From positions 1 to 64,000 of the forward strand of contig DATIGE010000049.1 in assembly GCA_035454885.1 (NCBI GenBank): a stretch of 64,000 nucleotides of DNA. Direction: 5' to 3'. The position numbers and the translations under genes were made by a program. Shown here piece by piece: positions 3,636 through 64,000 of this stretch; the first letter of the stretch is position 1, and each line of letters starts with the position of its first letter. The notes beneath the pieces are model-generated. The model made no database searches and was not told the DNA's origin. It saw nothing but the letters and a program-made list of their open reading frames with translations. The DNA comes from a bacterium. Lineage in GTDB: Bacteria; UBA10199; JACPAL01; GCA-016699445.

Positions 3636-4427
3636 TCATTCCCTTGTCCTCGCGTCAATCGCCCCTCTCTCGGGTTTCACCGGCCCCATCATCATCCGGA
3701 CATCGAAACAGTCGGGCGGGACCGCGGGGCCGACATCGATCAAGCCGTCTTCGACCTCGGCCCCTCCCGAAGGCAACGGGACGACCTCCGACGGGAGCTC
3801 CTGACCCAGATTGGGGGCGACCGAGATCCCATCAAGATAATAATGAAGATCGGCCGGGTCCGAGGTCAGGAAGGTGAAATCGACATAATCAAAGAGGGGC
3901 TCTTGCGGCGTCTTCACGCCTTCTTGCTCCTGCGGCGACTGCTGGAAGCCGATCACCAGGATATGGTACCCCGTATCGGACGCGTCCTTCTTATAATAGA
4001 CGTGAAGTTCGTACATTCTTGCCTGAAAGGCGGCGTACCTTCTCTTTTTGATGTGCCCCCAGACATGGACACTCGTCTTGCCGCCCGGCATCCTGCAGTC
4101 CCGGGAGATCTCCCCCTCGAGAAACGGGAAGTAGGCGTTCGGCACTTCATGGATCGGCGCCGCCGTTCCGGCCGGCATGGGATTCGGGCCGGAAGAAGCG
4201 ACAACAGGTGAGGGATTGTTCGGCAAGGCGTCCGCCGAGCGGTCTTCCGCCGCGTCCGCCGAGCCGTCTCCCTGAGACGTATCTCCCGCCTTCGCATCGC
4301 CCGCCGCCCCCATGACGGCTGTACCGGGAACGATCCCTCCCCTTTGGGCGCCCTGCGGGAGGCAGGCGGTCCATAAGGAGCAGCAAAAGAGCAAGAAGAG
4401 CGACTTATTCCTGAAGTTCGTTTTCAT
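3636..4427 (-). CDS. Probable lipoprotein, paralogue of the upstream gene
   Basis: 263 residues starting at MKTNFRNKS, a basic N-terminus followed by a hydrophobic stretch and a cysteine in TACLPQ, which suggests a lipoprotein or secreted protein. The ATG overlaps the stop of the upstream gene as ATGA, which decides this start over an in-frame ATG 39 codons earlier. A low-complexity Ala/Asp/Gly linker (about 30-75) precedes a globular part ending in PPDCFDVRMMMG. The upstream protein has the same ACLPQ after its signal and ends LPSCFEPKMEMMG, so the two look like diverged duplicates. No domain is recognised and the function is unknown. Confidence 0.75.
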   Translation of the reverse strand: MKTNFRNKSLFLLFCCSLWTACLPQGAQRGGIVPGTAVMGAAGDAKAGDTSQGDGSADAAEDRSADALPNNPSPVVASSGPNPMPAGTAAPIHEVPNAYFPFLEGEISRDCRMPGGKTSVHVWGHIKKRRYAAFQARMYELHVYYKKDASDTGYHILVIGFQQSPQEQEGVKTPQEPLFDYVDFTFLTSDPADLHYYLDGISVAPNLGQELPSEVVPLPSGGAEVEDGLIDVGPAVPPDCFDVRMMMGPVKPERGAIDARTRE

Positions 4428-5299
4428 CGGCCCATCATTTCCATCTTCGGCTCGAAGCAAGACGGGAGCGGATCGGGGCCGGTGGTATCCGCCAGCCTGT
4501 TGAGGAGCTTGTGAGGCTGATGGAGGTCGAGGCCATCCGTGCATTCCAGGCTTTGACAGGATTGTGGGCTCGGGCTGGGTTGATATCCGTACCAGCCGAA
4601 CGCGACAAACCGCAGCGAATCGGCATCCGAGGTGGCCACGTCCGTATCGAAATAGACGACAGGCTCGGAGTTTTGCGGGTCGACCACGGGAGCCCGGGCC
4701 ACGAGGCCCGGTTTGCCCTCAGGTCTGGGCGGCGAGCTGAGAAAAGGAAGATCCTTGTAGTAAAGGGCGTCCGATCCCCGAGCGTAAATCAAGCGCAGGT
4801 GAGTCCCCATCGGAACTATGAGGGACTTGCTCGCTTGCTCGGCGTCGATGGTCGCGGGATCAATATTGAATCCAATGATCATGCCGGCGCGTCCGCGCAG
4901 GTGCACCACCTGGATGCCCGCAGGGGTCGCGCACGTGGCCGTCTTTTCGCCGGTCACGAGAGTCAATTGATTCCCCGTCGGATCATGGGTGGGCACCGCG
5001 TCCCCTGCCTGCATGGGCGACAGGACGCTTTCATAGGTAATCGATCCCCTAGGTCCTGACGACGCATCCGCGAATTTCCCCGAGGGGGACGGTCCTTCGA
5101 CGCCGGGTTCCTCAACATCCCCTCCCCCGGAATCCGGGGCCCCGCCATCGGCCGACCGGACGTCCGCATTCGCCGGCCCCAGGACCCCGCCCCCCGCAGG
5201 GGCACCCGTGGGCACCGCCTGAGGCAGGCAGGCCGCCCCGGACAGGACAAAAAAGGCTGTTAAAACAAGCCTTAAGACGGTTTCCATCCTTGCGTTCAT
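4424..5299 (-). CDS. Probable lipoprotein, first gene of a paralogous pair
   Basis: 291 residues. The N-terminus MNARMETVLRL is followed by a hydrophobic segment and GAACLPQ, a likely lipid-attachment cysteine. A Gly/Ala/Asp/Pro linker (about 28-75) leads to a domain with two cysteine pairs near CATP and SCQSLEC and the ending SCFEPKMEMMG, shared in outline with the next gene. The pair overlaps by four bases and is probably one transcript from the candidate promoter at 5328-5357. Location is inferred to be periplasmic or outer membrane. The function is not recognised. Confidence 0.75.
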   Translation of the reverse strand: MNARMETVLRLVLTAFFVLSGAACLPQAVPTGAPAGGGVLGPANADVRSADGGAPDSGGGDVEEPGVEGPSPSGKFADASSGPRGSITYESVLSPMQAGDAVPTHDPTGNQLTLVTGEKTATCATPAGIQVVHLRGRAGMIIGFNIDPATIDAEQASKSLIVPMGTHLRLIYARGSDALYYKDLPFLSSPPRPEGKPGLVARAPVVDPQNSEPVVYFDTDVATSDADSLRFVAFGWYGYQPSPSPQSCQSLECTDGLDLHQPHKLLNRLADTTGPDPLPSCFEPKMEMMGR

Positions 5300-5327
5300 T
5301 TTAGCCTACCCTGAGCGGAGTTCCTAT

Positions 5328-5357
5328 TTTCTATTTTCGGCGGATGACCCGTCGCAA
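5328..5357 (-). promoter_or_regulatory. Candidate sigma-70-type promoter for the lipoprotein pair
   Basis: On the minus strand a -35-like TTGCGA (5352-5357) and a -10-like TAGAAA (5328-5333) are 18 bases apart and about 30 bases upstream of the ATG at 5299. Each matches consensus at four of six positions. This is a sequence reading only. Confidence 0.35.
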
Positions 5358-5377
5358 GTTACCGATTTTCTTCTATT

Positions 5378-5393
5378 GTCCACGGTCGTGGAC
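5378..5393. other. Short hairpin between NHL gene and lipoprotein pair
   Basis: GTCCAC and GTGGAC form a perfect six-base stem around a four-base loop just after the NHL gene's stop. No T-run follows on either strand, so it is at best a weak 3'-end structure for the NHL transcript or an operator. Confidence 0.25.
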
Positions 5394-5400
5394 GGTCCCC

Positions 5401-6753
5401 TCAGTCGGTCCCTGGGGACAGGCTAGGCACCCTCGACCTCCGGTAGAGATTCTGAATCTCTTTCATCGGACCGGGCAAAGCCCGCCAAATGGTTTCGGCG
5501 GGCCGGAGGGGTTGTTTCAGAATACGCGACTCGGGACAGAGGGAGACCGAGCTGATCCTCTTGAGGGCGGCGGAATCTTCCGCATCGGTCAGGAAGAGAT
5601 TCCCGTCATCGTCCAAGGCGAGACCCATGGGCCTGGCAAGGATCGCATCCAGCGGCGGCAACCTCCCGTCTTCGACGGCCCGGGTGCCCCCTCCGGCGAT
5701 GGTGGAGATGCGTCCGTTCTTGTCGATCTTTCGAATGAGACCGTTCCCCGTGTCGGCGATAAAGACGTTGCCGTAACCGTCGGCGGCGACATCCGACGGA
5801 CCCGACAGGGCCGCGTCCACAGCCGGACCCCCGTCGCCTGAATATCCCGTGACGCCCGTGCCGGCCACCGTGGTCATCACGCCGTCCGTGTCCACCTTGC
5901 GGACCCGATCCCCGAAGAATTCGGCGATGTAGAGGTTTCCATCCGGGTCGAGGGCCAGCCCCCCGCCCAGGTCCAGCCCGATGGACCTGGCCACGATTCC
6001 GCCGGCGGCCGAGGTCGTCCCATCCGACACGATTGTCGACGTATTTCCCGATGAGTCGATTTTCAAGATGCGGCACGGGACGTGAAGGGGAAGAGATGAC
6101 GACTCATGAGAAGGCGCCTCATACCTCACGTCGCAGACGGAGACGAAAAGGTCCCCCGACTTGTCCGCCACCAAGTCGACGGCCGCCGGTATGTTGTGGA
6201 CCGAGGCGTCGGTCGTGTCGAATTCCTTGACGTCCCGTGCAAGGATCGGGACACCCTTGGCGACCACGGCGCCGACCGCAGAGGCGCCCCATTTCAGGAT
6301 TTCATAGCCGCCCTTGATGTGATAGCCGCCGCCCGGGAGGGGGGTTCTGTCGAAGATCAGGCCGGTCATGTAAAGATAACCCGCCGCACCGTTGGCGATG
6401 CCGATCGAAACGGGCGCCGTGTCAAAATTCCCGACGTAGAAGGGTGTGATCTTCTCGCCGCCGTTCGCCTTGCCGCCCGCGGCGTCCGGTCTCGCCGCGT
6501 AGACGGATTCGTTTTCATAATCGCTGAAGGACACCGTTCCCCCGGAATCCACGGCAATCCCCATCGGAAACGGGTTTTCGAGACCCAACTGTTCCACTCC
6601 CACGACCTCCGATACGGAGCATGTCTTGGCCGCGTTCATCTTGAGAGAGGCCGCGCCGAAGACGTTTCTTGGGACCACTTTCCTCGATTCGGCGCCGAGA
6701 GATGCAGACCCAAAAACGGCGATCGCGAGAGCAAAAACGGCCTTCTTCTTCAT
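5401..6753 (-). CDS. Secreted NHL-repeat beta-propeller protein
   Basis: 450 residues with a clear Sec signal peptide (MKKKAVFALAIAVFGSASLGA). The rest repeats the NHL pattern: a glycine-asparagine turn then hydrophobic strand then basic residue, as in GNLYIAEFFGDRVRKVD, GNVFIADTGNGLIRKID and GNLFLTDAEDSAALKRI, with TTVAGTG and STIAGGG between blades. Such propellers are usually ligand- or protein-binding scaffolds outside the cytoplasm; no catalytic residues are evident. It stands alone between the lipoprotein pair and ispG. A weak promoter (TTCAAG, 17 bases, TAGAAT at 6803-6808) lies upstream. Confidence 0.85.
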   Translation of the reverse strand: MKKKAVFALAIAVFGSASLGAESRKVVPRNVFGAASLKMNAAKTCSVSEVVGVEQLGLENPFPMGIAVDSGGTVSFSDYENESVYAARPDAAGGKANGGEKITPFYVGNFDTAPVSIGIANGAAGYLYMTGLIFDRTPLPGGGYHIKGGYEILKWGASAVGAVVAKGVPILARDVKEFDTTDASVHNIPAAVDLVADKSGDLFVSVCDVRYEAPSHESSSLPLHVPCRILKIDSSGNTSTIVSDGTTSAAGGIVARSIGLDLGGGLALDPDGNLYIAEFFGDRVRKVDTDGVMTTVAGTGVTGYSGDGGPAVDAALSGPSDVAADGYGNVFIADTGNGLIRKIDKNGRISTIAGGGTRAVEDGRLPPLDAILARPMGLALDDDGNLFLTDAEDSAALKRISSVSLCPESRILKQPLRPAETIWRALPGPMKEIQNLYRRSRVPSLSPGTD

Positions 6754-54290: not shown

Positions 54291-55409
54291 TTAACGAAAA
54301 GGATTCGAATAATTTTTATTTTGGAGCAGGGCCTTGTCCGTCATGAGATTCAGATAAATCAGGATTTTCTTCTTTGCTTCCGGGCTCAGATTCAGCTTCT
54401 TCGGCTGTTCGTTCGCTTCGCGCAACGCGGGACTCAACCCGCCGAAATCCTTAACGCCGTGATCATAGTGATCGAGAACTTCCTCCAAGGTATCAAATCT
54501 CCCATCGTGCATGTAGGGAGGCGTTAGAGCGATGTTTCGCAAGGTCGGCGCCTTAAATTGCCCCTGTTCCAAACCATTATTGGCCATGCGGTAACCTCCG
54601 TAGAGGCCCGTGGCGTTTCCATGCCGATCGACGCCTCTGTGGCACTTGGCGCACAGATTCAAGGTGTCTTTGGTAATCTTATCGGCCTTGGTCAACCGGA
54701 ATTCGAGGAATTCCGGGGAAATTTCATCCTCTCTTTTTAACCCGACATCGACTCTCTCGATTTCATCCAGCGGCGCCTCGAAAGAGACGATGCTGGCGAC
54801 GAACTGTCCGATCGCCCTCCCGATTCTCTCCTCGGTGATCTCCGTATTCCCGAAGGCCAGGCCGAACATAGCCGGATAAACCGGATGCCGCTTCAGTTCC
54901 TCGATCAGGCCGGTCATCGGCTGGTCAAGCTCCTTCGGCTCTTGTATGGGAATGACCGCCTGGGCCTCCAGACTGGGCGCGCGGCCGTCCCAGAAAAAGT
55001 TCCGGCTCCAGGCCAAATTCGCCAAAGCCATCGTGTTTCGCCCCATATTCTGCCCGTGAATGCCGGGGCTGAATCGCTTGCGATCGGCGAATCCCAGGGA
55101 CTGCACGTGGCAGGAACTGCACGACATCGTATTGTCCCCGGAAATGATCGGGTCGTAAAAGAGCCAGCGCCCCAGCTGGACCCCGGCCTTGGTCAGCGGA
55201 TTTTTTGGATTTTGCGGAAACTCCGGCGAGCCGGGTGGCAATTCGACGAGGTGAGGCGCTTGGGGGTCTCTGTTCCGCAATGTCTCATAGAGCTCCTGCT
55301 GCTTTGCCAATGGGACGGGCGGGGATATTTCTCCCCGTTCTGGAGAGGCACATCCAAAAAATAGGGCCGCCAGCGATGTCATCGCGACCGTCAGGGCGAA
55401 AATGCGCAT
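54291..55409 (-). CDS. Di-haem cytochrome c peroxidase (MauG/CcpA family) lipoprotein
   Basis: 372 residues with a lipobox-like FFGC. Two c-type haem sites are visible: CSSCH (about 95) and CAKCH (about 252). KAPTLRNIALTPPYMHDGRF is the conserved loop near the second haem. The family reduces H2O2 with electrons from cytochrome c, or oxidises a partner substrate like MauG. It diverges from the UbiA/FAD fusion across a palindrome (55423-55440); a flavin oxidase next door could be a source of its peroxide. Confidence 0.92.
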   Translation of the reverse strand: MRIFALTVAMTSLAALFFGCASPERGEISPPVPLAKQQELYETLRNRDPQAPHLVELPPGSPEFPQNPKNPLTKAGVQLGRWLFYDPIISGDNTMSCSSCHVQSLGFADRKRFSPGIHGQNMGRNTMALANLAWSRNFFWDGRAPSLEAQAVIPIQEPKELDQPMTGLIEELKRHPVYPAMFGLAFGNTEITEERIGRAIGQFVASIVSFEAPLDEIERVDVGLKREDEISPEFLEFRLTKADKITKDTLNLCAKCHRGVDRHGNATGLYGGYRMANNGLEQGQFKAPTLRNIALTPPYMHDGRFDTLEEVLDHYDHGVKDFGGLSPALREANEQPKKLNLSPEAKKKILIYLNLMTDKALLQNKNYSNPFR

Positions 55410-55422
55410 TCTTTTGACTCAA

Positions 55423-55440
55423 TGTAACCCAAGGGTTACA
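55423..55440. promoter_or_regulatory. Candidate operator palindrome between divergent genes
   Basis: TGTAACCC and GGGTTACA are exact complements separated by AA, in the 54-bp gap between the peroxidase and UbiA/FAD genes. On the plus strand it overlaps the spacer between TTGACT (55414-55419) and a weak -10, so a bound regulator could control one or both genes. Confidence 0.5.
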
Positions 55441-55463: not shown

Positions 55464-57983
55464 ATGACGCGTCACTTTAACAAGGCACTGGACCGCCTCG
55501 AGGGCCGACCCTATCATCCCGCTCCCTTGTTTTTCATCGTCCTCGCCGTCGGCGTAGGACGCACGGTGGAGGAGATCTATCTCGCCCGCCTGGGCTTGGG
55601 CTTGAGCATCCTCTCGCATTACACGGCGTTTTACCTTGCCACTTTCCTGGGATTCACCCTGATCGCGTCGACTCTCCTGGGGGAAAGCTGGAAAAAGGTC
55701 TCCCGGTCCGTCGTCTTTGGAATCCTTGTCGGGCTATTGCCCCCGCTCATCGACGTCTTTTGGCTTGGCCCCGGTAATTTCCGGTATTTCTATCTGGACC
55801 GCTTTTACCCCACGCTCCACGGCGCCGGAAATTCGTACAGCGAAGCTATCGCCGCCTGGTCCGCCCTCGTCGCCTTTGCCGTCTATCTATTCCTGCGTTC
55901 CCGGTCGCCGTGGCGCACCTTGCTCGGGGCGGCCCTGGGCTATCTCTTCTTGATCGCGACCGTCACCCTGTATCCGAAGTTTGGGAACGCGGTCTTCGGC
56001 TCCCTCAAGGAAGGGTCAGCCCGGGGCTTCGGGTACCTCTTCCTGTCCTTCGTCCTCTACGTGGCCCTGAACTTCCGGAACTTCCTTCCTTCGCTGAAAC
56101 GCGTCAATCACAGCCTACCCTGGGTCGCACTGGTCTTTCTGGGGGCGGCGCTTGCGGGGGACATCGGAAACATCCGCCCCATGACCTGGCTGCAGGCGTT
56201 GATCGTCCTCCTGATCCATCAGGGTGTCGTGGCCGCGAACGACTATTACGACCGGGATTCGGACGCCCTCAATCAACGCGTCACCCGCATCGATCGGGAC
56301 GACCTGATCGCCGTCCATGGCTTGATCGTCTGGCTCGCGTTGACCGTCTGCTTTGCGGCGCCGAAACTGGGCTATCTCTATCTCCTCTACCTCCTTTTCA
56401 CAGCCGCCTATCACCACCCTTTGACCCGGCTGAAACGGATCTTTCCGATCAATTACGCGATCGAAGGCCTGGTCGCATCGCTGGCGCTTCTGATCGGCAT
56501 GGCAAGCACCGGACGTTATGAATTGACCGGAATGGAGTTGGCCTATGCCGGAGCCGCGTTCATCGGTTTCGCCGCCTCCTCTCCCTTCAAGGACTACAAA
56601 GATGTCCCCGGCGACGAGGCAACGGGGACCCGCACTTTGTACGTTGTTTTATCCGGCCGAGGATGGTCGTTAGCCGCGACCCATCGGCTCGTCTCCTGCA
56701 TCGTGCTCAGCTTTCTGATGGGGCCGTTGTTCGTGCTCTACGGGAAAGGCGTCCCGATCCTGCACATCGCGCTTATTCTTGGGGCCTTTGTCCTCCCCAC
56801 TTTTTTCAGCCTGCGGGGCAAGGAAAAGAAGTCGACGGTCGAACGCACGGCCTGGCTGATCACCGGCTACCTGATCGTCTCCGTCATCGCACTGCACCTC
56901 GCCACCCCTGCGTCACCGCCGTCCACAGTCTCGGGACCGCTCAAGGACTTCGGCCAACTCAGGCTGAGCGCCGATACGTACGAATCCTCCCATCCGTCCT
57001 CTCTCGAGGAGGTCGTGGCACTCGTCCGCAAAGCCAACCAGTCAAGAACCCCCATCCGGGTCCGCGGAAAGGCCCACTCGATGAACGGCGCGAGCCTGCC
57101 CCGCAGCCGGGAATTGCTGATTCTCACCGACCGTCTGAGGGGCTATCGATTCGGCGAACCGGGAAGCATCACGGTCGGCGCCGGCATGGGCATCTATGAA
57201 TTGCGCGCCTTCCTGAAGGACCAAAAATTTCGCTTACCCGTAACCAACGACGGGCAGGGCGGCCCCACCGTCGGCGGTTTTATCGCTGCAGGCGGCATCG
57301 GCGGGCGATCCGACGTCCACGGCGGATTTTGGGAAAACGTCCTTGAAATGACGCTCGTAACCGGAGCGGGTGACGTCCTGCAGATCCGCCCTGGGGACGA
57401 CCTCTTCCCTTGGATGTTCGGTTCGATGGGGCAGCTGGGGATCGTCGTCTCCGCCAAGCTCAAGATCTTGGGGCCAGATCCGCTCTATCCCCTGAACGAA
57501 GAGGGAACGGTTCCCCCGATCAACGCGGGCGATGCGGAACCGCTTTACTGGTTCACCCTTTTCGTCCCCACGGCCGAGTTGGACGCGGCGAAAGAGGCGA
57601 TCCAGCGGATCCGGGAGACCCATGCAAAGACGTTCCTCTACCGCCAGGACTACGTTTACCCGATCAAGTTCGTCTCCTTCAATCCGCCGCTCATTTTTCC
57701 CGCGAACATGGATTTTGTCGGAGTGGGAATTTGGGGCTCGCCCGTTCGGCCGGACCCCTCGCTCGTGCTGGCCGTCGAGCGGGACGTCATGAGTCTTGTG
57801 GCCGCGCGTCACGCAACGCCCTACCGGCGGTACATCCAGTCGGAGGTGGTTTCGCCGGGCACAGATTACAGGGCCTATTTCGGAGATGTCATCTACCAGA
57901 AATTCCTGGGTCTCAAGAAAAAGCTCGACCCCGGCTTTCTTCTGAATTGCGGCGTGGTTTTTGCCTGTTCGAACTCCGACTGA
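55464..57983 (+). CDS. Fusion of a membrane region, UbiA prenyltransferase and FAD-linked oxidase
   Basis: 839 residues in one unbroken frame. Residues 1-210 hold about six hydrophobic segments of no recognised family. Residues about 215-480 are a UbiA-type prenyltransferase with first motif NDYYDRDSD (259-267) and second motif KDYKDVPGDE (about 377). Residues about 495-680 form a VAO/PCMH FAD domain: RVRGKAHSMNG, with His538 where covalent-flavin enzymes carry their attachment histidine, and GGPTVGGFIAAGGIGG. A substrate domain (680-839) follows. It could prenylate a phenol, quinone or sugar phosphate and oxidise the product; this is inference. No terminator separates the parts. Confidence 0.88.
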   Translation: MTRHFNKALDRLEGRPYHPAPLFFIVLAVGVGRTVEEIYLARLGLGLSILSHYTAFYLATFLGFTLIASTLLGESWKKVSRSVVFGILVGLLPPLIDVFWLGPGNFRYFYLDRFYPTLHGAGNSYSEAIAAWSALVAFAVYLFLRSRSPWRTLLGAALGYLFLIATVTLYPKFGNAVFGSLKEGSARGFGYLFLSFVLYVALNFRNFLPSLKRVNHSLPWVALVFLGAALAGDIGNIRPMTWLQALIVLLIHQGVVAANDYYDRDSDALNQRVTRIDRDDLIAVHGLIVWLALTVCFAAPKLGYLYLLYLLFTAAYHHPLTRLKRIFPINYAIEGLVASLALLIGMASTGRYELTGMELAYAGAAFIGFAASSPFKDYKDVPGDEATGTRTLYVVLSGRGWSLAATHRLVSCIVLSFLMGPLFVLYGKGVPILHIALILGAFVLPTFFSLRGKEKKSTVERTAWLITGYLIVSVIALHLATPASPPSTVSGPLKDFGQLRLSADTYESSHPSSLEEVVALVRKANQSRTPIRVRGKAHSMNGASLPRSRELLILTDRLRGYRFGEPGSITVGAGMGIYELRAFLKDQKFRLPVTNDGQGGPTVGGFIAAGGIGGRSDVHGGFWENVLEMTLVTGAGDVLQIRPGDDLFPWMFGSMGQLGIVVSAKLKILGPDPLYPLNEEGTVPPINAGDAEPLYWFTLFVPTAELDAAKEAIQRIRETHAKTFLYRQDYVYPIKFVSFNPPLIFPANMDFVGVGIWGSPVRPDPSLVLAVERDVMSLVAARHATPYRRYIQSEVVSPGTDYRAYFGDVIYQKFLGLKKKLDPGFLLNCGVVFACSNSD

Positions 57984-57992
57984 GAATCACGA

Positions 57993-60179
57993 TTACCACG
58001 CCACGTCATGGCAACTGCCGTTCCAGGTCGACGTGTCCTCAAGCGTTGTTCCGTTATAGCCCGTCGCCGTGAACTTGCAGGTTTTGGCCGGAAAGGAATT
58101 GCCCATATTAAATTGGCCCGAAAGGGAGCCGCCCTGAGACCCGTATTCCTTCGCGGGCGGATTGATGGTCAGATTGCCGCAATCCGACGTGATTGTTTTG
58201 ATATTTTTCCCTGACCATGTGGCACCGACCGTCATATGGGTACCTTCCGTCTCGGCGCAAGGACCGCATTCGTCGTCGCAGTCCCATCCTCCGCAGCAAT
58301 CGTCGAAGGAATCCACCCACTGACTGGTGATGGCCTCACCTGTGACGCTAAACTCCGGTACATAAGGCCAATCCTTCCACGCGTACCCGAACGTGTTGCC
58401 GCTTAAATCGACGCCGATTGCCGCCCAATAATACTGCCCGTGGTCTCGATTCATGGTCACGGTCCCTTGCGACTCGCCCGGGGTCACCGGCTGCTCTTTC
58501 CTCAAAGGGGAATTCTGCTCCGAGACGCCGCCGTAAAACCGGATGAACTTCACACCCCAAGGGATATTGCCGGAATCCAAGGTCGCGCCCCCGTCTTCCT
58601 TGACGGTGTAGTCCTGCTTGATCCTCCAGATGAATCTCACGGTTCCTGAGTCGTCTGCGGTGCCAACCCCACCCCCTGCAAGCCAAACTTCGGGCTCGGT
58701 GTCGGGGTCGTTGTCCCATCTCAACTCGAGGGACGGGCTCCCCAGCGTTGCGACGACTTTCTTCGTCTCCTTGTTGTTCTCTCCGATGCCGTGTGCCGTC
58801 GCCGTGATGTTCGCCGTCAAACCGGAAAGATCGCACAACGCATTCAAGGTGCCGGTCGCCCCCGCCAGGGCGGGCCAACTCGTACCCGTCTCCGGCGAGC
58901 AACCGGCCGCGGCCGCGACAGAAGGAAGCGCGATGACGTTGGTGTAGGAGAGAGACACTTTCACCTTGGGCCGGTCATCCCCCGCCTTGGTGGTCATTTG
59001 AGCACCCGTCACGGAAAGCCCTGCCTTAGGCGCCTCATAGCTCTTGCACTGCACAATCAACGATTCATCCGAGCCTTTCAAGGCGAGGCAGAACTGGGCG
59101 TGTTGGACGAGCGGCCGGGTGTAAATGGTTGCCGTCGTGATCAGTGAGGCATCATCCTTGGCGAGATCGATCCGGCAATTGGGATTCGTCTCCTCGACAA
59201 AAACAGGAATGATCGGGCCGATCTCCATCACCTTGTCCTTCTGGAGAGTGATGTCCTTCAACATCTGCTCCTTGAGTTCGAGCTGGATAGCATAGACATC
59301 CCTCTCCTCAAGGGGACGGCTGAATTGGAAGGCGGTCGAGCTCACGGACTTGCAGTCGTCGTCTGTCGACGCATTCGCGTTGTCGCAGAGCACACCCTCC
59401 AGGAAAGGCAGATTGCTGTTGTACAGATCGGACCCCGTATTGAGCTTCTTGCCATCGGGTCCGGTCACCAGGTGGCGCGTCCCCACGAGCTTGCACTGTT
59501 CCGGGACGGCGAGTCCGGCGTCCGTGGCCTCGCGGTTGAAGTCGCCCCAAATGTAGGCCGCCTTGGCGCCCGAAAAGCTCCAGTCGATCTTGACGGTGTT
59601 CATCTCGGCGCCCGCGGTCACCTTGGTCACGTTGAAGGAATTGATCGTCGCGGCCGTCGGCGCCGGGGGCTCCGCCGGGGACGTTTCACCCCCCGTGGTT
59701 CCGCCCGTCGTGCCGCCGGTGGTTCCGGTGCCCGTCGTCTCGCCGCCGGAGGGCGTGATCGTCTCGCCCTCGGCCGTGGAAGGCGGCGGCGTTTCCGGTG
59801 GCGTCACACCTTCGGGACCCGCCCCGACGCCCGGAACGTTGAAATTCTTCTCGATCAGCTTCACGCCGCTGTCCCCGCACTGGGCGTGTATGGTCTTGTC
59901 TCCGGGCAGGCTCGGCGGCACCGTGAACTCCACAGTTTCGTTCTCGGGGTGGTAGACGAACTCGACGGGCTTGCCGCCGAAAAAGACCGTGCAGTCCTCG
60001 CTGATCCCCTTGACCTCACAGACGACCGTGGCCCCGGCCGAGGCCGAGGGCGGCGTGCAGGCGCTCAATCCCGATGGCTCCCCCTCGATTTTCGTTCCTC
60101 CGCCACCGCCGCAACCGGCCATCGCCACACTTAAGACCGCCAGGACGTAGAGGGACTCGAAGATTGAAAGGCGTTTCAT
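57993..60179 (-). CDS. Large secreted lipoprotein, paralogue 1 of a tandem family
   Basis: 728 residues with lipobox MAGC then GGGGG. An N-terminal IPT-like domain (ACTPPSASAGATVVCEVKG, EDCTVFFGGKP) is followed by a Pro/Thr/Gly linker (about 125-175), a central domain with CDNANAS, and a C-terminal domain containing WSGKNIK and ending with WNGSCHDVAW. The same N-terminal, central and C-terminal outline occurs in the next two genes. A Cys-rich motif GGWDCDDECGPC (about 655) is unique to this copy. Location is probably the cell surface; function unknown. It lies 30 bases after paralogue 2. Confidence 0.8.
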   Translation of the reverse strand: MKRLSIFESLYVLAVLSVAMAGCGGGGGTKIEGEPSGLSACTPPSASAGATVVCEVKGISEDCTVFFGGKPVEFVYHPENETVEFTVPPSLPGDKTIHAQCGDSGVKLIEKNFNVPGVGAGPEGVTPPETPPPSTAEGETITPSGGETTGTGTTGGTTGGTTGGETSPAEPPAPTAATINSFNVTKVTAGAEMNTVKIDWSFSGAKAAYIWGDFNREATDAGLAVPEQCKLVGTRHLVTGPDGKKLNTGSDLYNSNLPFLEGVLCDNANASTDDDCKSVSSTAFQFSRPLEERDVYAIQLELKEQMLKDITLQKDKVMEIGPIIPVFVEETNPNCRIDLAKDDASLITTATIYTRPLVQHAQFCLALKGSDESLIVQCKSYEAPKAGLSVTGAQMTTKAGDDRPKVKVSLSYTNVIALPSVAAAAGCSPETGTSWPALAGATGTLNALCDLSGLTANITATAHGIGENNKETKKVVATLGSPSLELRWDNDPDTEPEVWLAGGGVGTADDSGTVRFIWRIKQDYTVKEDGGATLDSGNIPWGVKFIRFYGGVSEQNSPLRKEQPVTPGESQGTVTMNRDHGQYYWAAIGVDLSGNTFGYAWKDWPYVPEFSVTGEAITSQWVDSFDDCCGGWDCDDECGPCAETEGTHMTVGATWSGKNIKTITSDCGNLTINPPAKEYGSQGGSLSGQFNMGNSFPAKTCKFTATGYNGTTLEDTSTWNGSCHDVAW

Positions 60180-60209
60180 AGGCTTCTCCTCACTCTTTAT
60201 TCTTTCGGA

Positions 60210-62357
60210 TCAATTGCAGCTCCAGCCGGTTATGTTCCAGTGGCGCGTCGTCGTGGAGTCGTCCAGGAAGGTCGCCGTCACCGTGAAGTTCATTCCTGCG
60301 GTCCAGGTATCGCTCTTGGAGCCCAGATCACGGTAGATCTTGACGGTGCCGAAGTGCTCTCCCGCCGCGCCCGTGGGCAGTTGGGAATGGCCGGTGTCTA
60401 TGCCGACCGTTTGTGCGTCGTCTCCGGCAACACTCAGACTCTTGATGTTCTTACCGCTCCAGTTGAACAGGTGGTAGATTTTGACGCCTCCGGTATTGCA
60501 AGCGCTGCCGCTTAGATCCATGCCGCCTCCGCCGCTGGTCTGACTGAGGTTGAACGTCTTCGGGTATCCGGGCGACGTGTACTTCTTGAACTCCTCTTTT
60601 CCGTCAAAGTCCTTGATGCCGAACCACCATTCGTTGTGGCTCATGTCCTGAGTGACGGGCCTGTCGCCCGAGAATTCGGAGGGCGCCGATGCATTCTTAT
60701 AACCATTATCCGACTTGAAGCCTTCAAAATAGGTCTGCTGGAACCAAGATGCTTCGCCGCTCTGCAGGACCGAGTCCTCTTCCTTGATCGTGAAGTTGCG
60801 GACGGCCTTGTACTGAACCTTGAAGTCCCCGGTCTCGTTCTCCAGAGGCACGGTGCCCATGGGCTTGAGCGTCACGGTCGGGGACCCAAGCTCGATCGTG
60901 TACGATTTCTTCTGCTTGTTGTTCTCGCCGACGCCGTAGACGGTCACGTCGATCGCCTTGGTCAGGGCGTTGATCGCGCACTCGCCTTCATAGTGGCCGA
61001 GCCCGTTGGGTTGCACCATCGTATTTGGCTTCTGGGAGCACCCCGTCGCCTGCGCGGACGTGCCCGGGGAGTAATCGAGTTTGAGAGTGACCGCCATCTT
61101 GTCCGATGGCACGCTCACCGAGCTTGCGGTGATCGCGACGTTGGACGCCTTGAGCTTGTCGCCGGTCACGCACTGCACCTTCCAGGCGTTGTCGTCCCCC
61201 AGCAACACGAGGCAGAGATTGCCGTACTGGGCGTGGCTCCGGAAATAGAACTCGCCGGCCGTCACGAGATTGCCGTCCTTCTTCAGGTCCAGGCGACAGG
61301 AGGGGTTCTTCTCGGCGATCTCAAAAACGATGCCCGGGGACACGGCGACCATCTTGTTGTCCATTTCGACCTGCTTCAACACCTCGATGTTCTGGTAGGC
61401 GTAAAGGTCCTTCTTCAAGAGAACGTCGTTGAAACGGCTCCCATCCTTGGGACTGAAGTCCAACTGGGCCGAGGAGGAGGAGCTCCTGCAGTTCGTGTTG
61501 TCGCAGAGGATCCCTTCCACCGGCAGCTTCGTGTACGGATCGGTGCCCGGGTTCAGTTTCTTTCCGATCTCGTTCGTCCTGAGGGAGCGATCCCCCTGGA
61601 TCTTGCACTGTTCGGCCGCCGCCAGGCTTCCGTCCGAAGGCGTCCGGTTGAGGACATTGCCCCAAACGTAGGCCTCCTTGGCCCTGACGAATTCGAAATC
61701 CACGTGGAAGGTCATGAGCTCGGCTCCCGGGGCCGCCGACTTTTCGACGACGAACTTGACGATCTCCGCCCCGGTCGGTGTTGGAGGAGACAGAGGGCAT
61801 CCTTTCCCGTCCACGGCCGTGCCGGAGACCGTGCCGGGGCAGGCGTCCGACGCATCGGCGACGCCGTCGCCGTCCGTATCCGGGAGTGGAACCTCGCCGC
61901 CCGTCGCGGGGCCCGTCGTCGGCCCGCCGGGTTCCATCGGGTTGATCACATCCCCCGCCTCTCCGCCCGCGGGCGCCGTCGTGTCCGCCGGAACCGCCGG
62001 TTCACCGGAGGTTACCGCCGTCAGATCGAACACCCCGATCGGGTGGACGCCGCTCTCGGCCTGCCAAAAAATCTGCCTCTCGCCGGGGAGCCCCGCCACG
62101 ACCGTGAACGCAACCGTCTCCTCCTCCGCGTTCACCGTGTAGTCGATGGGATTTCCCTTTCCAAAAAAGAGGGTGCTGTCCTCCTCGATGCCCTTGGCGG
62201 CGCAAACGACCTTGGTGCCGATCGGCCCCGAGGCGGGTTCGCAGGCGCTCAAGGCGGAGGTCTTGGACCCGTCGGTGAGGTCCCCGCCCCCTCCTCCACC
62301 ACAAGAGGCAAGAAGGACGGCGCACACCCAGACGGTGAGTAGAAGTCTCTTTTTCAT
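60210..62357 (-). CDS. Large secreted lipoprotein, paralogue 2 of a tandem family
   Basis: 715 residues with lipobox LASC then GGGGGG. The N-terminal IPT-like domain (ACEPASGPIGTKVVCAAKG, EDSTLFFGKG) leads to a linker with a thrombospondin type-3-like calcium motif DTDGDGVADASDACP (about 160-175). A central domain with CDNTN and a C-terminal domain with FNWSGKNIKSL, KIYRDLG and the ending WNITGWSCN follow. This copy is closest to paralogue 3. It has its own promoter (62406-62435) and a palindrome over the Shine-Dalgarno site. Confidence 0.82.
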   Translation of the reverse strand: MKKRLLLTVWVCAVLLASCGGGGGGDLTDGSKTSALSACEPASGPIGTKVVCAAKGIEEDSTLFFGKGNPIDYTVNAEEETVAFTVVAGLPGERQIFWQAESGVHPIGVFDLTAVTSGEPAVPADTTAPAGGEAGDVINPMEPGGPTTGPATGGEVPLPDTDGDGVADASDACPGTVSGTAVDGKGCPLSPPTPTGAEIVKFVVEKSAAPGAELMTFHVDFEFVRAKEAYVWGNVLNRTPSDGSLAAAEQCKIQGDRSLRTNEIGKKLNPGTDPYTKLPVEGILCDNTNCRSSSSSAQLDFSPKDGSRFNDVLLKKDLYAYQNIEVLKQVEMDNKMVAVSPGIVFEIAEKNPSCRLDLKKDGNLVTAGEFYFRSHAQYGNLCLVLLGDDNAWKVQCVTGDKLKASNVAITASSVSVPSDKMAVTLKLDYSPGTSAQATGCSQKPNTMVQPNGLGHYEGECAINALTKAIDVTVYGVGENNKQKKSYTIELGSPTVTLKPMGTVPLENETGDFKVQYKAVRNFTIKEEDSVLQSGEASWFQQTYFEGFKSDNGYKNASAPSEFSGDRPVTQDMSHNEWWFGIKDFDGKEEFKKYTSPGYPKTFNLSQTSGGGGMDLSGSACNTGGVKIYHLFNWSGKNIKSLSVAGDDAQTVGIDTGHSQLPTGAAGEHFGTVKIYRDLGSKSDTWTAGMNFTVTATFLDDSTTTRHWNITGWSCN

Positions 62358-62362
62358 GATTT

Positions 62363-62374
62363 CCCCGTACGGGG
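62363..62374. promoter_or_regulatory. Perfect palindrome CCCCGTACGGGG over the ribosome-binding site
   Basis: This 12-bp palindrome lies five bases before the ATG of the gene at 60210. Its GGGG end is also that gene's Shine-Dalgarno sequence, so an RNA hairpin here could hide it. An imperfect palindrome (about 62386-62405) lies at the expected transcript start. Confidence 0.4.
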
Positions 62375-62405
62375 GATTATCGGCGGAAACCCCATATGGA
62401 GTTTC

Positions 62406-62435
62406 ATTCTAACCTAGAAACACGCAAGTGGTCAA
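62406..62435 (-). promoter_or_regulatory. Promoter of the paralogue 2 lipoprotein gene
   Basis: On the minus strand TTGACC (62430-62435) and TAGAAT (62406-62411) are 18 bases apart, each one base from consensus, about 45 bases before the ATG at 62357. It probably drives paralogues 2 and 1. Confidence 0.6.
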
Positions 62436-62497
62436 AATACGTGGATTTTAGCCACTCTTTCCGCGGGACAGCGCTCGCTATGGCTCGTATAAGGAAG

Positions 62498-64000
62498 CTA
62501 GTGACAACTCCAGCCGTCGATGTGCCAGGTCTTCGATTCCTGGGTGCCGTCGCGGAAGGTCACGCGGATCGTAAACTGCAATTCGGCGTCCCATGTGCCG
62601 TCCTGGTCGCCCAGGTCCTCGTAGATCTTGAGGTAGCCGGCGTCGAAACCGTCCTTGCCCTCGGGCATCTGAGAATGATCCAGGTCGATCCCGGCCCCGT
62701 CGACCGTCACCGTCTCGACGTTCTCTCCTTCCCAGTTGAAGAAATGGAAGATACGGACCTCCGTCTTGTTGCAGGTCCCGTTCGCGACCTCGGATCCGTC
62801 CGGGTGCTCCATCCCGCCCCCTTCCGAGGTCAGCTCCAGGTGGAACCTTTTGGGCATGCCCGGCTTGGGGCCCAGGAGGTCACCCGAGGCCTGTAACCCC
62901 TTGCCCACGACCTTGAAGTCCTTGATCACCGAGCTCCGCACTCCGTAAACGGTCGCCCGGATCGTGTTCTCTCCCGCGCCGATTCGGCACTCCGCGACAT
63001 AAGTCCCCGAGCCGTCCTTTTGGTAAGAATCCTGCGTGACGTCTTCCTCCGAGCAGCCCTTGAGCCGGGGAGAATTCACGGCGTCGTCATACTCGATCCG
63101 GATGGTGGCCTTCCGGCCGTCCTCGGACACCTGGGCCTCCGACTCCGTGATGGCCGGGCTCGGCGCCTTCCAGGTCCTCTCGTCGCGGATGACGGTCCCG
63201 TTTTGGGTCTTGGCGATAAGGACGATGCGCATCTCCTTCTGGTGGGAGAGCGTAAAGAACTCGCCCTCGGAGACTCCCTTGTCGATGAACGGGGCCTTCA
63301 GATCGATCCGACAGACCGGGGCGTCCGGGGCCGGCATGCGCTGGGGCTTGCCGGGCGTGACGTCGGCCTTGAGGCCCACGTCGGCCGCGGGCGTCTTACC
63401 CGTCGAGAGGCCGGCGCAATCGCCGTTGTCGTGACAGAGCGTACCCGTCAGGTAGGGGGCGGCCGCCTCGGCATCCGCGCTGCCCTCGTTGAAATGATTT
63501 CCGTCGTCATTGACCGCGAGGTAACGCCCTCCGATCTTGCCGCAGGGGTCGCTCTCGGCGCCATCATTCGAGAATCGATTGAAGGCCGCGTGGATATAGG
63601 CCTCCTGGACATCCCCGGAAACCTTCCAGTGGACGCGGATCATCTTGAGATGCGTCTCGTGGACGTCGGCCGTCCCCTCGAGGGACGCAAACGCCCCGGA
63701 ACCGGTTCCGGCGGAGATCTCGCCGCCGACGACCAAATCCTGGCCCGGCGTGGAAGGATCCTCGCCCGCCGGTCCCTCGCCCGCCGGATTCTCCGGCAGG
63801 ATCTCCTCTCCGGCCCCCTTCTCCGCTCCGGGTGCGGCGTCGAAGGAGGGCAGAACTTTGAAGTTCTTCTGGAGCGTCTCGGGCGCTTCGGCACCGCAGG
63901 CGTAGAGGATGTCCCGGAATCCGGCCGGCATCGCCGGAACCTCGAAGGTGACGGCGCCCCTTTCGGTGTCGTAAGCCGCCGCGACCGGCGTGCTGCCCAG
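62498..64000 (-). CDS. Large secreted protein, paralogue 3 of a tandem family (5' partial)
   Basis: At least 500 residues; the frame stays open to the window end, so the start and signal peptide lie beyond it. Visible are the end of an IPT-like domain, an acidic Pro/Gly linker, a central domain with CHDNGDC, and the C-terminal domain FNWEGENVETV, KIYEDLG, ending WHIDGWSCH. It matches paralogue 2 almost motif for motif in the last 110 residues. Function unknown. Confidence 0.82.
   Translation of the reverse strand: MGSTPVAAAYDTERGAVTFEVPAMPAGFRDILYACGAEAPETLQKNFKVLPSFDAAPGAEKGAGEEILPENPAGEGPAGEDPSTPGQDLVVGGEISAGTGSGAFASLEGTADVHETHLKMIRVHWKVSGDVQEAYIHAAFNRFSNDGAESDPCGKIGGRYLAVNDDGNHFNEGSADAEAAAPYLTGTLCHDNGDCAGLSTGKTPAADVGLKADVTPGKPQRMPAPDAPVCRIDLKAPFIDKGVSEGEFFTLSHQKEMRIVLIAKTQNGTVIRDERTWKAPSPAITESEAQVSEDGRKATIRIEYDDAVNSPRLKGCSEEDVTQDSYQKDGSGTYVAECRIGAGENTIRATVYGVRSSVIKDFKVVGKGLQASGDLLGPKPGMPKRFHLELTSEGGGMEHPDGSEVANGTCNKTEVRIFHFFNWEGENVETVTVDGAGIDLDHSQMPEGKDGFDAGYLKIYEDLGDQDGTWDAELQFTIRVTFRDGTQESKTWHIDGWSCH

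Follow-up and report, generated by a model that had tools for sequence, protein, structure and literature searches.

UbiA proteins have nine membrane helices with their active-site loops on the cytoplasmic face (PMC10994848), and enzymes of the UbiA fold and of the VAO fold work in one pathway in the case of Rv3806c and DprE1/DprE2 (PMC11127046, PMC10994848). UbiA domains are also found in fusions with another enzyme from a related pathway, as IspH-UbiA and HAD-UbiA (PMC4746011, PMC11127046). The gene compared with these systems here lies in a 64,000-nucleotide stretch of DNA, referred to as the window, and joins a UbiA domain to an FAD domain, a combination for which no description was found in the open-access literature. 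Its features are as follows.

55464..57983, plus strand: UbiA-FAD fusion gene, an open frame of 839 aa plus stop, in which both Pfam domains, UbiA and FAD_binding_4, score above cut-off in the same protein
55464..56078, plus strand: N-terminal domain (residues 1-205) with about six membrane helices as judged from hydropathy and the model, model confidence being low here
56079..56918, plus strand: UbiA domain, residues 206-485, nine membrane helices, from Pfam (residues 223-458) and model fold matches
56238..56264, plus strand: first Asp-rich motif, NDYYDRDSD (residues 259-267), aligned with NDxxDxxxD of other UbiA proteins
56589..56615, plus strand: second Asp-rich motif, KDYKDVPGD (residues 376-384), of the prenyl-diphosphate type and absent from phosphoribosyltransferase-type UbiA proteins
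56919..57980, plus strand: FAD domain, residues 486-839, made up of an FAD-binding part (490-668) and a short cap (672-839), from Pfam, a PDB sequence match and the model
57075..57077, plus strand: codon of His538, the residue proposed for FAD attachment, which aligns with the His in the GHS motif of cytokinin oxidases

The frame runs from ATG to TGA and is free of internal stops. A sequence-only reading of this DNA had proposed a single protein joining UbiA and a VAO/PCMH flavoprotein, and this was confirmed, as one intact frame contained both the UbiA match (PF01040, E 7e-17, 61.9 bits against a curated cut-off of 34.2) and the FAD_binding_4 match (residues 511-641, E 1.7e-22, 80.1 bits against a cut-off of 26.4). 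A chimera or frame error is unlikely, given this intact frame, a composition (GC 0.54-0.64, GC3 0.68-0.85) without a step at the junction near residue 485, the lack of any ATG, GTG or TTG codon between residues 455 and 517 that might serve as the start of a separate FAD protein, the internal position of the gene on a 78.4-kb contig and the rating of the host genome (completeness 100 %, contamination 0.21 %). Downstream, on the minus strand (57993-63931), lie three large genes in tandem for predicted secreted proteins or lipoproteins, mutually similar by eye, the first of which had no Pfam match.

The two domains were modelled apart; a joint alignment had put UbiA rows on the FAD domain. The earlier figure of roughly six membrane segments fell short, since the protein has about 15 helices, six in the N-terminal domain and nine in UbiA. 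The N-terminal domain had no Pfam or PDB match, nor did it convincingly resemble the N-terminus of the nearest UbiA relative. The model of the UbiA domain, of middling confidence (pLDDT about 57-85 over residues 210-420 and about 52-63 beyond), matched the folds of DGGGP synthase (7bpu) and AfUbiA (4tq3) with a TM-score by target length of about 0.65, compared with 0.51 for the phosphoribosyltransferase Rv3806c (8j8j). Both Asp-rich motifs were present where the sequence-only reading had placed them (259 and 376), and the second has the same form in the nearest relative (KDLKDVEGD). The RP-x-x-G loop that follows the first motif is replaced by TRIDRDD, with the Arg kept; this loop is common rather than strictly defining, and varies in several of the aligned UbiA rows. 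Because it has been lost here, the UbiA activity may be altered or gone.

Both Asp-rich motifs lie in loops predicted to be cytoplasmic. With the N-terminus taken as inside, the loops assigned to the cytoplasm hold 27 Lys and Arg residues and those assigned to the outside hold six (summed by hand, residues 20-50 being counted as one helix). By the positive-inside rule, the FAD domain and the C-terminus are therefore predicted to lie outside, across the membrane from the UbiA active site, an arrangement that had not been foreseen from the sequence. Direct channelling between active sites so placed would be hard, and a FAD domain on the outer face, which has no export signal of its own, would need to be threaded through the membrane unfolded and to pick up its FAD outside. 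The predicted placement favours the main rival to the reading developed below, namely that the two domains act on different molecules, with UbiA making a prenyl product and the last helix merely anchoring a quinone- or oxygen-linked dehydrogenase outside. We regard this as possible, although its chances are well short of even.

The sequence-only reading had drawn an analogy with prenyl-phosphoryl-arabinose synthesis, in which Rv3806c is followed by DprE1. The analogy did not hold, since in this genome those functions are assigned to separate, adjacent genes (locus L071), encoding a UbiA protein of the decaprenyl-phosphate phosphoribosyltransferase type (E 2e-46) and a DprE1-like protein (E 1.8e-99), and since the second motif of the fused domain is of the prenyl-diphosphate type (KDYKDVPGD, compared with KRYSEL in the phosphoribosyltransferase type). 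Decaprenyl-phosphate phosphoribosyltransferase models gave no significant match to the fused UbiA domain, BLASTP found no meaningful similarity between it and the separate UbiA protein, and the FAD domain scored 41.5 bits against the NCBIfam model DcplphribOxDprE1, below its cut-off of 500. That the fusion nevertheless unites a phosphoribosyltransferase and a DprE1-like oxidase of this pathway in one chain would suit the shared pair of superfamilies and the presence of DprE1 among the fold and profile matches; it is very improbable in view of the separate genes, the same pair in relatives standing in an operon with a DprE2-type reductase, the motif and model results and the weaker fold match to Rv3806c.

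In the FAD domain, the FAD-binding part was modelled well (pLDDT mostly 80-98) and had PCMH/VAO fold matches, which, together with the Pfam match above cut-off, bore out the earlier assignment to the VAO type. The best PDB sequence match was cytokinin oxidase (residues 489-668, E 5.6e-12). In cytokinin dehydrogenase the His of the GHS motif carries the FAD. His538, which lies in RGKAHSMNG, was aligned with that His by phmmer, so that its earlier nomination as the covalent-flavin residue is plausible. The cap, of about 170 residues, was poorly predicted (pLDDT below 50), matched nothing in Pfam or the PDB over residues 672-839 and is too short to be the cytokinin-binding C-terminal domain. Several unrelated PCMH subfamilies (D-lactate dehydrogenase, DprE1 and lactone oxidase) scored nearly as high as cytokinin oxidase, so similarity does not reveal the substrate; nothing in these scores ties a prenylated substrate to the FAD domain, which again suits separate substrates for the two domains.

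Cytokinin oxidase oxidises its substrate next to a prenyl side chain. The FAD domain might accordingly attack the prenyl group itself by hydride abstraction, as a cyclase or oxidative-release enzyme comparable to the plant prenyl-phenol FAD cyclases and cytokinin dehydrogenase, and the best PDB match and the presence of His538 both agree with this. The bicovalent enzymes of the berberine-bridge type, however, depend on a larger cap and on an additional Cys, of which neither is evident in the fusion, and the Asp of cytokinin dehydrogenase is aligned (with Asp596) in some alignments only. An enzyme of this kind is consequently considered unlikely.

Independent lineages with the same fusion had been proposed as a check on the earlier reading. 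A search with the full protein at thresholds from 1e-3 to 1e-11 revealed no second UbiA-FAD fusion in 472 genomes (G000-G471), 46 of them of its class, the best three candidates per genome being scored in the largest set. All 46 class genomes carry UbiA-family genes, yet only one has the FAD fusion, and no copies were found in GTDB contigs (searched with peptide patterns), viral contigs, plasmids or phages. The nearest UbiA relative found (29 % identical, MAG Dive96_bin4.233) has no FAD domain; it is the second of two adjoining UbiA-like genes (L032 3055-5207, genome G059) and carries an N-terminal membrane extension.

Several candidates were rejected as UbiA-FAD fusions: a 764 aa frame in G238 (L094), which is a DprE1-like protein with upstream read-through; a 769 aa frame in G022, which by eye is a CstA-like carbon-starvation transporter; and the match at L087, a D-lactate-dehydrogenase-like protein beside a chance pattern match. 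Among the UbiA frames of 588-618 aa in the class, the one that was read, L044:526-2289 (G001), is by eye a UbiA-family fusion of another kind, with CtaA-like and CtaB-like parts (haem A and haem O synthase) in one open frame. Two class relatives (L072 and L073) carry, by eye, the HAD-UbiA form. The host genome itself has a second FAD_binding_4-like protein (G000:C64:22816-23328, L002), which looks DHCR24-like by eye and has similar counterparts in several genomes of the class.

Occurrence in a single genome of the 472 allows no selection test of the joining of the domains. It would fit a recent gene fusion that arose in one lineage without selection and in which one domain is inactive, as would the loss of the RP-x-x-G loop and the shortness of the cap. 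The fusion has, however, kept its two Asp-rich motifs, its FAD-binding core and His538 intact, the frame is undamaged and even in composition, and the promoter appears to be regulated, which together make such an accident distinctly improbable, slightly more so than the attack on the prenyl group considered above. The lack of a conserved pairing in any other genome of the same search also counts in favour of domains that act on different molecules.

Evidence on regulation came from the region upstream of the fusion gene and from a second locus of the genome, L118, with the following features.

54291..55409, minus strand: divergent di-haem cytochrome c peroxidase/MauG-MbnH-type lipoprotein, 372 aa, from CCP_MauG (E 6e-51) and PDB matches to a di-haem enzyme and a peroxidase
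55423..55440, no strand: palindrome TGTAACCC-AA-GGGTTACA with core GTAACC-N4-GGTTAC, proposed TetR operator, from its copies in the genome and the promoters of relatives
L118 (G000:C75) 3687-5919: genes for TetR (5278-5919), an Scs7-like hydroxylase and an AurF/ferritin-like protein

The peroxidase has two CXXCH motifs and a lipobox-like N-terminus (LFFGC), and did not reach the cut-offs of the models specific for MbnH and MauG. On the strength of the lipobox-like N-terminus and the haem motifs, it is expected in the same extracytoplasmic compartment as the FAD domain. The link that the sequence-only reading had suggested between fusion and peroxidase gained support from this predicted co-location and from the 54-bp promoter region that the two genes share, in which the operator-like palindrome is situated. 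The perfect core occurs three times in the 2.76 Mb genome, compared with 0.11 expected from composition, and no copy with one mismatch was found in the genome. A control pattern gave two matches at one mismatch, so weak motif matches by themselves carry little weight.

The TetR gene at L118 has the other two copies of the core around its start, 53 bp from each other, and is divergent from a fatty-acid hydroxylase gene (PF04116; PDB match to yeast Scs7, E 3e-22, hence Scs7/FA2H-like). The product of the gene after the hydroxylase matches AurF and ferritin-like proteins weakly and has no confident family. In the class, the core was also found between TetR and hydroxylase orthologues (52-56 % and 47-48 % identical, respectively) in five genomes of another family, f13 (G015, G019, G024, G029 and G042), and in a sixth genome, G038, before two hydroxylase genes. 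As read from the promoters at L128, L129 and L132, it follows a TTGACA-type box and an AT-rich -10 region, as for a repressor site. Operator-like matches in the relatives' genomes at G019:C16 and G009:C26 lie away from any TetR or hydroxylase gene and are probably due to chance. Because the core is shared with the TetR/hydroxylase locus and kept there in five genomes, the fusion is probably a member, along with the peroxidase and the fatty-acid hydroxylase, of a TetR-controlled lipid-oxidation regulon, and the same TetR may act on the fusion promoter. The proposed link between fusion and hydroxylase runs through this DNA motif only, which counts against the explanation that follows.

Under that explanation, the fusion would be one polytopic enzyme with about 15 membrane helices. 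On the cytoplasmic face, its UbiA domain, with Mg2+ held by the two Asp-rich loops, would prenylate a membrane-bound acceptor, with a prenyl diphosphate as donor; on the outer face, its cytokinin-dehydrogenase-like FAD domain, probably flavinylated on His538, would oxidise a lipid, the likeliest being the prenylated product once this had crossed or flipped in the membrane. We infer in this way that both domains act in sequence on one lipid. Electrons from the FAD would pass to O2, forming H2O2, or to a quinone, and any H2O2 would be used or removed by the co-regulated periplasmic di-haem peroxidase. The TetR repressor would govern the fusion, the Scs7/FA2H-like hydroxylase and the AurF/ferritin-like diiron protein; with such control, the pathway would be one for the oxidative modification of membrane lipids. 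Taken as a whole, internal prenylation, external lipid oxidation by the FAD domain and TetR control form the explanation that we tentatively prefer, at a little under an even chance. Against separate substrates for the two domains, it has in its favour that fused enzymes usually share a pathway and that the promoter region and the putative regulon are common to other lipid-oxidising enzymes. The more specific proposal, in which a two-sided enzyme prenylates a lipid inside and oxidises it outside, in a TetR-controlled pathway with the hydroxylase, the diiron protein and the periplasmic peroxidase, so as to yield an undescribed membrane lipid, is more doubtful, falling somewhat below even the chance given to separate substrates.

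The conserved, proposed TetR operator outlines a concrete candidate regulon and directs the search for the product to membrane lipids. Among described enzymes, DGGGP synthase and AfUbiA (7bpu, 4tq3) share with the fusion the nine helices, NDxxDxxxD and KDxxDxxGD and give the best fold match, but lack its extra six-helix N-terminal domain and its C-terminal FAD domain and have not lost the RP-x-x-G loop. With cytokinin dehydrogenase and other PCMH/VAO flavoproteins it shares the FAD-binding fold (489-668) and a His at the covalent position, but it is membrane-tethered, its cap has only some 170 residues, and its substrate-binding part is unrelated in sequence. Rv3806c with DprE1/DprE2 likewise combines UbiA-fold and VAO-fold enzymes, although these are encoded by separate genes and PRPP is the donor. 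In IspH-UbiA and HAD-UbiA the partner is N-terminal and hence cytoplasmic, whereas here it is C-terminal and predicted outside, which, if true, would represent a new coupling of prenylation with oxidation across the membrane.
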